A DNA stretch of 23,442 nt from a virus: positions 1 through 23,442 of IMG/VR virus record IMGVR_UViG_3300041583_000337; one strand, written 5' to 3'. Shown here one piece after another: positions 5,517-17,255 of the stretch. The translations under genes and the position numbers were made by a program. The notes under the pieces are model-generated. The model saw only the letters and a list, made by a program, of their open reading frames with translations, made no database searches and was not told the DNA's origin. Numbering within the stretch: position 1 is the first letter of the stretch; every line of letters starts with the position of its first letter.

Positions 5517-6452
5517 ATGAGCAGGACCGTTCGCAACCTGCGCACCCGGTTCGCGCCGTCACAGCGCACCGACATCTACCGAGCCATCTACGGCCAAACA
5601 ACCCCAGGCGCACGCTGGCACATTGACGAAGCGATTCGCGCGAACCAAGCCGCTGGCGTGTGGGGCATGGCATCGGGCTGGACTGCCGAGCAGCTCTCCA
5701 GCTGCATGATCTTCCAAGACAGCGCGGGCACCCTGCCTGTGTTTGCGCTTGAGCAGCCAATTGGATTGGTGCTTGATTGCCGGTATGCGCCGGGTAGCCG
5801 GGGACCGGAGTTGGTGGTCAATGGTGGGTTTGATGTTGATACGGCTGGCTGGTTTATCAATGATGGCGGCTGGACTTGGGCCGAAGGAAGGGCATCACTT
5901 GCCGGAAATAGCACACCTCAAACTCTTCAGCAAAGTGGACGATTTGTTTTAGGCAAGCTATACGAAATCGGGTTTGATGTAACCAGTAGTGGCGGGGCGA
6001 TTGGACTAGAGCGAGCAGACGGCATAGTTTTTTCGTCAGGTTCAGCGGGAAGGGTAACAACTAGATTTTTTGCTGATCGCACGAATTTAGCGTTCAAACG
6101 CGCCAGTGGCGTAGTAAACGGAACTATCGACAACGTCTCAGTCCGAGAAATCCCCGGCCTGCCGCTCACGCAATCCAGCACGATGGCCCGGCCTGCTGCG
6201 AGCGCACGAATAAACAGGCTTCTTGCAACCGATGTCCTATCGACGCAGGCCGTGACGGTGGTTGCCGCCCCTCATGTTCTTTCGTTCACAGGCACAGGGA
6301 CTATCACGCTGTCCGGTGCATCAACTGCCGGGCCACTTGTGGGGAGTGGCGCAAGCAATCGTGTATCCATCACGTTTACACCAACAGCAGGGAGCCTGAC
6401 ATTAACGGTCAGCGGCTCAGTGCTGATGGGGCAGTTGGAGTTGGCGCTATGA
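5517..6452 (+). pseudogene. N-terminal half of a split CBM/LamG-like virion protein
   Basis: 311 residues. A basic N-terminus (MSRTVRNLRTRF) is followed by a segment common in phage LamG-type proteins (WTAEQLSSCMIFQDSAGTLPVFALEQPIGLVLD), then a jelly-roll, carbohydrate-binding-like domain at about residues 98-212 with the usual opening NGGFDVDTAGW and closing TIDNVSVREI, then a second beta-rich part ending ...LMGQLELAL. In related phage proteins a QLEL strand like this is normally followed directly by a YQ-containing linker and a concanavalin/LamG-like domain; that continuation is found here only after the HNH gene, at 7046. So the gene appears interrupted, although both halves have intact frames and may still be made as two proteins. 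Base composition drops in G+C from about 5760 on. Likely virion surface or receptor-binding role (inference). Confidence 0.75.
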
Positions 6453-6454
6453 GC

Positions 6455-6952
6455 CTAGATCGTGCAAGTGCTGTGCAGCACACGCTTGGCCGCGAGATAG
6501 GCTTGATGGGCTTCTTCCGGCGTATTGAAGTTCCCAAGGTTCTTGTTCATGCCGTTGGTCTGAATAGCGGCTCTCCACTTCCCTTGGTTGTAGTAAGCGC
6601 CGAGAAGGCCGGATCGACTCCCGGCCTGAGCGCGCTTCTGATTCTGCAAGTTCGACGCCTTAGATACGTCACGAAGGTTCTCGATCCTGTTGTCGCGGCG
6701 GTTGCCGTTAATGTGGTCAACCTCACCAGCAGGAAACTGGCCTTTAACGTAAAGCCAGGCGAGCCTGTGCACCCCGTAGGTTTTCATGTCAACACGGGCT
6801 CGAACGTAGCCTTCTTGGTCGACGGTCCCGCAAACTTGCCCAACGGCAATTCCCGGCCCAGGCTTCTTTCGGGTGAAGACGCCGGTTTCCGGGTCGTAGT
6901 GCAAAAGCTCTTGGATGCGCGCTTGTGTGATTGTAGAATTGGCCTTAGCCAT
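6455..6952 (-). CDS. HNH homing endonuclease with AP2 DNA-binding domain
   Basis: 165-residue endonuclease and the only gene on the - strand. The HNH core runs from His62-Arg63 (GVHRLAWLYVKGQ) through VDHINGNRRDNRIENLR (Asp79, His80, Asn82, Asp87-Asn88, Asn92) to SNLQNQ. A C-terminal AP2-type domain follows at about residues 115-160 (GLLGAYYNQGKWRAAI, LGNFNTPEEAHQAY, AKRVLH). This HNH-AP2 pairing is typical of phage homing enzymes that cut an uninterrupted allele and are copied into it by repair. The start at 6952 is chosen because AAGGA (6961-6965, - strand) lies 8 nt upstream; the frame remains open further up to 7153 but that part overlaps the start of the downstream gene. An extended -10-like TGTTAAAAT sits at 7023-7031. 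It lies exactly in the gap between the halves of a virion gene. Confidence 0.93.
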   Translation of the reverse strand: MAKANSTITQARIQELLHYDPETGVFTRKKPGPGIAVGQVCGTVDQEGYVRARVDMKTYGVHRLAWLYVKGQFPAGEVDHINGNRRDNRIENLRDVSKASNLQNQKRAQAGSRSGLLGAYYNQGKWRAAIQTNGMNKNLGNFNTPEEAHQAYLAAKRVLHSTCTI

Positions 6953-6960
6953 GCTGTTGT

Positions 6961-6965
6961 TCCTT
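6961..6965 (-). promoter_or_regulatory. Ribosome binding site of the HNH gene
   Basis: AAGGA on the - strand, 8 nt before the ATG at 6952. It decides for the 165-residue form over longer in-frame starts. Confidence 0.6.
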
Positions 6966-7022
6966 GTAAACAATGGTTTGGTCAGAAGCCTGCAAGTGTT
7001 GATAGCGCTTGTGGGCTTCGCT

Positions 7023-7031
7023 ATTTTAACA
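7023..7031 (-). promoter_or_regulatory. Possible extended -10 promoter of the HNH gene
   Basis: On the - strand TGTTAAAAT matches an extended -10 element (TGn plus a TATAAT-like hexamer), about 70 nt upstream of the HNH start, in the most AT-rich part of the insert. No good -35 is seen, which extended -10 promoters can do without. An opposite-strand gene in a late operon needs its own promoter, which favours this reading. Confidence 0.35.
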
Positions 7032-7045
7032 TAGGAGTTGCTTAA

Positions 7046-7636
7046 ATGGCTGAACCAACACGCTATCAATCGGTGGTATCGCCTACAAGCTACGACACAG
7101 CCGGATTCCCGTTCAAAGCGACATTCAACGGCACAAACCAATGGATGCAGCACGCCGCGCTGGATATGACAAGCACGGATGAGGTGACGCTTTGGGCGAG
7201 TTTGTTGAAGGAGAGTGATGCTGCTCTCGGTATTTTGTACGAAATAAGCACTGCGGCGTCGGCTCTTGATATTTCAGTTAACGCCCCTGGTGGAGCTAAC
7301 AATTCCAGTCTTAGGGCTAACACCCGAGTGGGTGGGCCGGTGTCTGACATAACTGTCACCGGATACCCCGCGCCTGCCAAAGCTGGGCTAATTGCAAGAT
7401 TCAAAGTGTCAACCGATACTGTCAACCTGTCAATTGCAGGCGTACAAGTAGGCAGCAACGGCACAGATCAGGGCACAGGAAATTACCGCAATAACCCTGG
7501 GTGGATCGGCGCAAGAACAGGCACATCGCTGTTCTTCAAAGGCGAAATCTTCGAGCTTGGCATTGCCGGGCGCGTCATCACAGACGGCCAACTGCAAAGC
7601 CTCAACGCACGCATGACACGGAGCGCCAAGATATGA
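7046..7636 (+). pseudogene. C-terminal half of the split protein: concanavalin/LamG-like domain
   Basis: 196 residues, a beta-sandwich lectin-like domain: YQSVVSPTSYDTAGFPFKATFNGTNQWM at the front (seen in pieces from residue 7), then DEVTLWASL, LIARFKVSTDTVNLSIAG and the closing FFKGEIFELGIAGRVITDGQLQSLNARM typical of LamG domains in phage proteins. In relatives this domain continues from a QLEL-type strand in the same chain, which here ends at 6452 upstream of the HNH gene. It now has its own ATG with AGGAG (7033-7037) 8 nt upstream, so it may be translated as a separate subunit that could still pair with the upstream half. Reading frame is shifted relative to the upstream half (insert length 2 modulo 3). 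Its stop overlaps the next start (ATGA). Confidence 0.72.
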
Positions 7637-16400: not shown

Positions 16401-17255
16401 ATCATCCAGCTGCAGGTGCGCGCCTTGGAGTCCGAGGCGGCCGCGATCATCCGGTCCACCCAGCTCAAGATAGTCGAACTCGACGTTGCCGGGCAGCTCA
16501 CGGCGTCCAAGCGTGCGGAGCTGGAGGCGGTGATCAGCGCCGCGCAGATCAAGATGGACGAGGCCAAGATCCGGGGCGAGAACATCACGCTGATGGAAGA
16601 GGAACTTCGCCTGCTCCGCCTGGGCAAGGGGGACCGGGACAACGGCAACTCGTCGTTGAGCACCGAGAACAACCTGCGCACGATAAACAACAAGCTTATC
16701 CGGGAGCGCTTGGGGTTGGGCGGCGGGGGCGGCGGAGGCGGCGGAGGCGGCGGAGGCGGCGGAGGCAAGGGCGGCGGGGGCGGCGGGCGGGACGACATGT
16801 ACAGCAGCCCTCTTGGCGAGGACAAATACGCGCGCGGCGGGCGGGGTGGTGCAGGCGGTGGGGACAAGCCTACAAGCAAGGCAGGCGCCGCAGTGGACAA
16901 CAGCTTGTCTTTCCTGCTGCGCGACAAGCTGAACGCGGGCACGATTACCGCTGCCGACCTTGAACTGCTCAAAACCGCAGCAGCAACCATCCGCGCCAAC
17001 CAGCGCGTTATCGACTCCATCTCGCCCGGGTTGAACAGCCTGGATGGGCTCAAAAGCGACCGCGAGCAGATGAACTTGGCAACACGTTTTGACGACGCAA
17101 TCCTGGAACTGACCACAGGGCAGGTTAAGGGCCGCCGGGTGACCATCGACATCAACACCGGTCGCGGCAAAGAGACGATTGAGACCGACGAGGACGGCGC
17201 CGGCGCGCTCATTCGCACCTTGCAGACCGCGGGCCTCAGTTCCACCCGCCGATAA
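13413..17255 (+). CDS. Tail tape measure protein
   Basis: 1280 residues, GTG start. It sets tail length and is later ejected ahead of the DNA. Residues 1 to about 430 are Ala/Arg/Gln/Glu-rich coiled coil. Residues about 440-590 form the conserved tape-measure N-terminal-type domain (LRLGLGQIFGSAEIA, VSVADISASFVKFSASM, GVVSMEELRQQLGDAIPGATALAAKGLG, ASKDFFPAFRNSLGG). A hydrophobic stretch at about 620-675 gives probable membrane-spanning segments. More coiled coil follows to about 1090, then a poly-Gly tract (residues 1103-1118, Lys1119, Gly1120-1125) leads to a C-terminal domain (NSLSFLLRDKLNAG, VTIDINTGRGKETIET). At the usual rule of about 0.15 nm per residue, a tail of roughly 190 nm is expected (inference). 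No separate tape-measure chaperone gene precedes it. Confidence 0.96.
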   Translation: MATSARRDIELALSVTTTNTESLKALRDDVQALAKQGGDAAPEFTRLAAELDKLARQAKELESLDGLTTSLRQQADAQRALAQTSGVLTQDYAQLGTATKTARDALAATAAELATQRREVTALGLALKQRRNDADADTKKTREYRDEMRATTAAQIAAKAEVLRLSTVLDANRAAVQSAAAAQTALAGSVRQADEATGRASAGLAEIQADYDRLAQRLRDAGVQTLAAADAQRELQAALGRTQAAVREAAAQQERATAAEREAMRENTRLAGIQEATRQRLAAQARAEADGVLRDIARIEAAQRAAALTAQRAADAQVQAQRDAARAAQRAADEINAALRLTGANAARDLRDEIQRVRNAMTLLGNSGTLAGDELDRAMRTGAARIDDLERQLRAATGQLNGMDRAASLLGSTLGKLAVFVSFVEIVQRLGQAFINATKQIENLRLGLGQIFGSAEIAAKQIDLLRRSADLAGVSVADISASFVKFSASMVTSGIPLQESNELFTALTRAAGTLGLSTVKTNQALEALSQIASKGVVSMEELRQQLGDAIPGATALAAKGLGITNAELFKLVESGQLASKDFFPAFRNSLGGLTGEVNTLGAAWARLGNAFTIGLQALGDSGLVTLLKGALAGLTITVQGTVLAFTFLAELFFTLGRQAGAFAGTLAGGGGLIAAFKAAGEESDAARARIDALGASFSKSNAETKGATEQTSALATELARLSGDAGAAEAAVTQGASAWVSYNLAAIKNIEILETRVKVAEKEVQAAEVQAQTIRAIGQLTGDANAQLEANQKATLIASEASAKLNAARQAEAKAVSDLYEGNKLLIESEGDLDGSYTAVNKGIEERVRLRAADAERTKQQAEASAFAAQEARIEAEAYKDNSANVLLLAEAYETAKDTLERLNAAKAAGSLTFGREAEQTLVVAEALRLYRDGLSDLTATLEANNKVKVIAFSIDESGLKLQLAQAKTSEKLALLAGNEYTARLAVLKQKEIEIKIIQLQVRALESEAAAIIRSTQLKIVELDVAGQLTASKRAELEAVISAAQIKMDEAKIRGENITLMEEELRLLRLGKGDRDNGNSSLSTENNLRTINNKLIRERLGLGGGGGGGGGGGGGGGGKGGGGGGRDDMYSSPLGEDKYARGGRGGAGGGDKPTSKAGAAVDNSLSFLLRDKLNAGTITAADLELLKTAAATIRANQRVIDSISPGLNSLDGLKSDREQMNLATRFDDAILELTTGQVKGRRVTIDINTGRGKETIETDEDGAGALIRTLQTAGLSSTRR
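16719..16787 (+). repeat. GGCGGCGGR 9-bp tandem coding for poly-Gly
   Basis: Five copies of the 9-bp unit GGCGGCGGR (16719-16763) plus GGC, one AAG codon, then two more copies (16770-16787). It codes for 16 Gly, Lys and 6 Gly in the tape measure protein. Units are multiples of three, so slippage would change length without breaking the frame. Confidence 0.9.

Follow-up and report, generated by a model that had tools for sequence, protein, structure and literature searches.

In the available part of a review (PMC2988022), mobE in nrdA of Aeromonas phage Aeh1 and mobA in gene 60 of T4 are described as free-standing HNH homing endonuclease genes that split phage genes, the Aeh1 nrdA enzyme staying functional despite the mobE split, and the UAAUGA of nrdA/mobE is given as a case in which overlapping stop and start codons bring about translational coupling. 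The same source presents segD of T4 as an antisense free-standing endonuclease gene of the GIY-YIG type with terminators around it and, in the part available, mentions no open antisense frame for it (PMC2988022). In bacteria, asa of EHEC, an antisense overlapping ORF, has been studied as a protein-coding gene (PMC6294744, available in part).

Here we analysed a 23,442-base virus record, a single metagenomic fragment that is referred to as the window throughout, in which a virion gene is interrupted by an HNH-AP2 endonuclease gene. As in Aeh1 nrdA/mobE and T4 gene 60/mobA, the phage gene is present in two separately read parts, and uninterrupted homologues align across the junction, as for genes in pieces of the Aeh1 nrdA type. 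Whereas mobE and mobA are reportedly in sense with their host genes, the endonuclease gene in the window lies antisense, and its complement is an open frame, termed frame X, that bridges the insert. The overlapping or abutting stop-start junctions of frame X are of the same kind as that of nrdA/mobE, but the partner that would be coupled here is the antisense of a mobile gene, linking two host genes or gene halves. The locus shares with segD a free-standing endonuclease gene antisense to its neighbours, differing from it in being of the HNH and not the GIY-YIG type, and with asa a frame that is open antisense to a gene, differing from it in that the residues of X are not conserved. A description of an open antisense bridge across an endonuclease gene was not found in the literature searched, which consisted of one library including the available part of the review (PMC2988022). 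Gene splitting by a homing endonuclease is already known; the stop-free antisense endonuclease gene with tuned ends is, as far as the literature searched shows, new.

A virion gene split by an antisense endonuclease gene

The split gene lies in the head-tail region of a tailed phage, preceded by genes for terminase and portal and followed by those for head protease, decoration, capsid, major tail and tape-measure proteins. The coordinates originally given for both half-genes and for the antisense endonuclease gene were correct (Table 1). Two repeats were observed elsewhere in the window, a 13/19-nt unit in a tandem array at the left end of the record (3-423), where several frames are open, and a GGC-type repeat (16719-16786) that gives a glycine run in the tape-measure gene.

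Table 1. Features of the split virion gene and of its insert (positions in the window).
Feature	Position	Strand	Remarks
UP, half of the virion gene upstream of the insert	5517..6452	+	311 aa, ends MGQLELAL; homologous to continuous proteins
CAG TTG GAG (Gln-Leu-Glu), final shared codons ahead of the insert	6432..6440	+	TTGGAG is the same in G001 and L201
GGAG, 8 nt before the ATG of frame X	6437-6440	+	read from the sequence
Frame X, open across the whole insert	6449..7045	+	198 aa; codon for codon opposite the endonuclease gene
HNH-AP2 endonuclease gene	6455..6952	-	165 aa from the likely ATG; without TTA, CTA and TCA codons
Hairpin of 16 pairs in RNA of the operon strand, with ATTTTA after it	6985..7019	+	resembles a terminator; far weaker on the strand of the endonuclease gene
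TAAAAT, possible -10 box of a promoter of the endonuclease's own	7023..7028	-	several relatives have a similar TAAAAT upstream
GGAG ribosome site, 8 nt before the ATG of DN	7034..7037	+	read from the sequence
DN, downstream half	7046..7636	+	LamG-like, 196 aa; starts MAEPTRYQSVVSP, pattern M-x-x-P-T-x-Y-Q

Viral loci related to UP number 68. L001 and L029 carry relatives of both halves in one frame running through QLEIG...YQ, and in L088, L102 and L125 the last domain of UP is joined to a DN-like domain by QLE(L/T)GSTATAYQ; the relatives provide 24 distinct continuous junctions. The continuous QLEL...YQ linker that had been stated for relatives is thus real, in the form QLE-x-G...YQ, and the continuous homologues of both halves (L029, L088, L102, L125) support the view that one ancestral gene was split by insertion of the endonuclease gene. 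It had also been proposed that deletion of 605 nt (6443-7047) restores the frame on paper. The arithmetic is right and continuous homologues align across the junction, but the join is one residue short, the Met of DN aligning at the Gly of the relatives, and the flanking GGC copies are just three bases, meaningless by themselves. A homologue split at the linker without an endonuclease gene, which would speak against an insertion, was not found among the loci inspected; in this check L099 was cut by its contig end, and L137, a candidate for a DN gene standing by itself, resembles a read with a frame shift.

DN matched Laminin_G_3 with an E-value of 1.1e-4, below the cut-off of this family. With DN alone as query a search of viral contigs found no relative; a DN alignment (A1) was too diverse for searching, and a narrower one (A2) worked. 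In the phage collection six partial matches were obtained for UP and two for DN. For L088, one of the continuous homologues, the AlphaFold model was of poor quality, with a pLDDT of 41.6, and was set aside.

The endonuclease matched HNH_3 (PF13392) with an E-value of 7.6e-18, phrog_99 with 2.2e-61 and, below the curated cut-off, AP2 (PF00847) with 8.7e-4, the combination of an HNH domain and an AP2-like DNA-binding part being that of HNH-AP2 homing endonucleases. A longer version starting from a GTG at 7153 is possible. The site is occupied in three phages, and relatives carry empty alleles. Rfam families gave no match over the whole window, excluding known group I and II introns there and supporting the earlier statement that the insert is not a group I intron of normal size. 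Nor is the insert in frame and on the same strand as the host gene, as an intein would be, since the endonuclease gene is antisense and UP ends in a stop codon. An inverted repeat joining the insert ends, as in an insertion sequence, was not detected (seed 7, length 8), nor was a clear target duplication. By eye, only a 7-nt GGAGTTG is visible at each end of the insert, where the two copies double as ribosome sites.

The same split at the same codon was found in two further phages, G001 and L201, which argues for a stable arrangement and against a chance lesion. In G001 (the record of L002, L074 and L075) the UP-like part ends AQLERV and is followed by an antisense endonuclease gene and a DN-like gene that starts MSQPTAYQ; the contig ends match at 126 of 129 bases, and the record is probably circularly permuted, with its break within the endonuclease gene. 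When the right junction was searched for as a DNA pattern, 22 stretches were retrieved, 21 of them unrelated and the other one G001 again. In L201, AQLEETRE is followed by two antisense endonuclease modules in tandem, as read from the translation, and then by MSVPTSYQ. The endonucleases of the three split genes are 42-52% identical pairwise. A test of whether they form one clade gave a p-AU of 0.265, and the three splits may stem from one insertion or from several. All three downstream parts have a Pro before the Thr (M-x-x-P-T-x-Y-Q), which is present in none of the 24 continuous junctions, suggesting that the insert brings a ribosome site, an ATG and two to three codons with it and may in this way provide its own start module.

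Frame X and its junctions

Frame X, a plus-strand frame spanning the entire insert, had been missed in the original prediction, and the statement made there that the downstream half gained an ATG is incomplete, as the insert also carries this full-length frame fitted to both flanks. In the window the ATG of frame X overlaps the TGA of UP, and its TAA stands directly before the ATG of DN. Frame X of G001 has 197 aa and TAATG junctions at both ends; that of L201 has 296 aa, is open across both endonuclease modules and ends TAAATG. TTGGAG precedes the X start in all three split genes, these codons supplying frame X with a ribosome site, and GGAG is found at those codons in one of the 24 continuous homologues. 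At both ends of the insert in the window, overlapping or abutting stop and start codons are combined with a ribosome site, as in translational coupling.

As frame X runs codon for codon opposite the endonuclease gene, an X stop corresponds to an endonuclease codon TTA, CTA or TCA. For the window gene alone 2.2 X stops are expected, with a probability of 0.077 for none. This openness is unremarkable, and the case for frame X therefore builds on the endonuclease family.

The first base of an X codon pairs with the third base of an endonuclease codon, which is free to vary at fourfold-degenerate positions. Where two endonucleases share the residue at such a position, this base differed in a fraction of 0.69-0.70 of the open antisense pairs vs 0.72-0.73 of the sense pairs (35-55% identity; at 55-90% identity the sense pairs, seven, were too few for this comparison). 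The third bases, which set the residues of X, thus vary as in sense pairs, arguing that the X protein is not conserved and that only the absence of stops is.

The operon-strand hairpin of the window precedes the ribosome site of DN. One fold pairs this ribosome site with upstream bases, and in a slightly longer stretch the site is folded differently. On the strand opposite to the endonuclease gene, hairpins upstream of it are strong in the window (z about -4). A strong opposite-strand hairpin just upstream of the endonuclease start was also observed in L183, L202, L240 and L242 as well as in the sense-context L071, L311 and L234. We do not claim the hairpins for the bridge because they are present before some sense-context endonucleases, too. 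The TAAAAT in this region was not among the sites listed by a sigma-70 scan.

Antisense stop codons across the endonuclease family

Relatives of the endonuclease were collected from 80 loci and later from 80 more, 68 of these being new. Matching places in phage records number 5,177. Context was defined by the strand of the longest flanking ORFs, ORFs overlapping the endonuclease gene being left out, and annotation was used in 19 genes only; this rule replaced an earlier one that had included such ORFs and had given 22/36 antisense and 0/34 sense open. Expected X stops were derived from the A-ending rate of the other codons of the same gene. L245 (8 codons) was dropped. After genes of less than 110 codons and near-copies at 90% had been left out, 119 clusters at 90% identity were obtained, with 52 antisense to their neighbours, 54 sense and 13 of unclear context, which were dropped.

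X stops were absent from 34 of the 52 antisense clusters (45 stops seen vs 250 expected) and from none of the 54 sense clusters (307 seen vs 359 expected), giving a Fisher value of 6.7e-15 for the 106 clusters with clear context. Among clusters with 2 to 7 expected stops, 31/47 were open in antisense vs 0/29 in sense. The new clusters alone gave the same picture, as 10/15 antisense clusters were open, with 10 stops vs 76 expected, and 0/21 sense clusters, with 90 stops vs 127 expected, a comparison in which the null overshoots. The other two antisense frames were not depleted in the new clusters; their stops totalled 138 and 133 over the 15 antisense genes vs 143 and 144 over the 21 sense genes, so that stops per gene were at least as frequent in antisense as in sense genes. 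In the other 18 of all 52 antisense clusters, e.g. L184, L187 and L213, frame X does contain stops.

A single site, located before a gene like P22 gene 10 (the gp10 site), accounts for 22 of the 52 antisense clusters, 20 of which are open; without it 14 of 30 antisense clusters are open, with 43 stops seen vs 141 expected (Fisher 4.6e-8). In a tree built from 96 endonucleases, 15 changes are required to account for the open state, and well-supported branches force at least six of them. The comparison of independent pairs was limited to four pairs on supported branches, the deep branches being poorly supported.

Twenty annotated phage records were fetched and 19 were scored; L262 was dropped, its endonuclease gene not being one CDS. 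The 13 genes that are sense to both sides contained 62 stops vs 69.8 expected, one of them (L274, 2.6 expected) being open by chance, and three genes in mixed context contained 20 vs 16.9 expected. Antisense to both sides are the genes of Pseudomonas phage PSA04 (0 stops vs 5.0 expected), MW202483 (0 vs 5.3) and Kapi1 (4 vs 5.4). The Kapi1 gene sits between the antirepressor and tailspike genes, which may not be coupled. Selection for an open frame X is well supported by these sequence comparisons.

Frame X also fits the neighbouring genes. Among the 20 open cases with a scored start, 14 have the X stop at -1 to +4 nt relative to the downstream start, vs 0/20 and 1/20 for the other two frames; L188, L203 and L227, all open, had no scored start, and in L201 the start was mis-picked owing to the second endonuclease. 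A good start for frame X close to the upstream stop is lacking at several sites. In all six uninvaded phages fetched for the gp10 site the two genes overlap or are ≤2 nt apart, suggesting that the insertion took place between two tightly spaced and probably coupled genes and that frame X re-creates their junction.

A putative ribosome bridge and its alternatives

Frame X is probably a ribosome bridge that keeps the neighbouring genes translationally coupled across the insert. A free-standing HNH-AP2 endonuclease gene, presumably active in homing, would have inserted antisense after the Gln-Leu-Glu codons of the virion gene between the portal and head-protease genes, and its complementary strand would be held stop-free. 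Ribosomes ending UP would restart on X through the GGAG and the overlapping ATGA, traverse the insert, stop at the TAA next to the ATG of DN and restart on DN. This traffic would melt the hairpin that precedes DN and leave no bare RNA for Rho, so that the downstream half would not be separated, silenced or cut off by transcription termination through the insert. UP and DN are likely made as two chains, which would then assemble as such.

The gene in pieces could also do without frame X if DN, with its good GGAG at 8 nt, started independently from its own ribosome site and X were open by chance or codon bias, as the probability of 0.077 in the window alone and the 18 antisense clusters that are not open would allow. 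This explanation is unlikely and was already disfavoured by the openness of 34/52 antisense vs 0/54 sense clusters, which concerns one frame only and was repeated on new clusters, and by the tuning of the X stop to the downstream start in 14/20 cases. A long frame with a ribosome site, similar in length in the window and in G001, might alternatively be an overprinted gene whose protein has a function of its own and is selected for its amino acids. We consider this very unlikely, as the synonymous bases of the endonuclease that set the X residues are as free as in sense genes and X is present at unrelated sites, mostly ending at the start of the next gene.

Two further readings concern the insert as a whole. 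The window being a single metagenomic fragment, the split might be a recent lesion, with the virion gene dead and both halves decaying, but each half is still an open frame of full length, and the arrangement is shared by three phages with endonucleases of 42-52% identity, which renders a lesion highly improbable. Hardly credible is a spliced group I or II intron or an intein that restores one protein: a joined frame can be written on paper, yet there is no Rfam match in the window, the endonuclease gene is antisense to the split gene, and stops and starts stand at both insert ends in three phages.

We think that the stop-free antisense arrangement is general. It is likely that there is a widespread phage class of HNH-AP2 genes, two-faced homing genes, held codon by codon to a complementary start-to-stop ribosome track that would allow them to reside antisense in translationally coupled operons, or even to interrupt a virion gene, with no polar effects. 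Their antisense would be a selected non-product frame that extends across the hairpin preceding the next gene as well. If true, this would explain how a mobile gene in reverse orientation can occupy a tightly coupled operon or divide a gene and yet leave the sequence downstream of it unsilenced. The arrangement has a sequence signature, the lack of TTA, CTA and TCA codons together with stop-start tuning, that is searchable across all antisense mobile genes, and it predicts that silent changes in the endonuclease gene alter the expression of phage structural genes. It would also be a warning that long antisense ORFs can be selected without encoding a useful protein.
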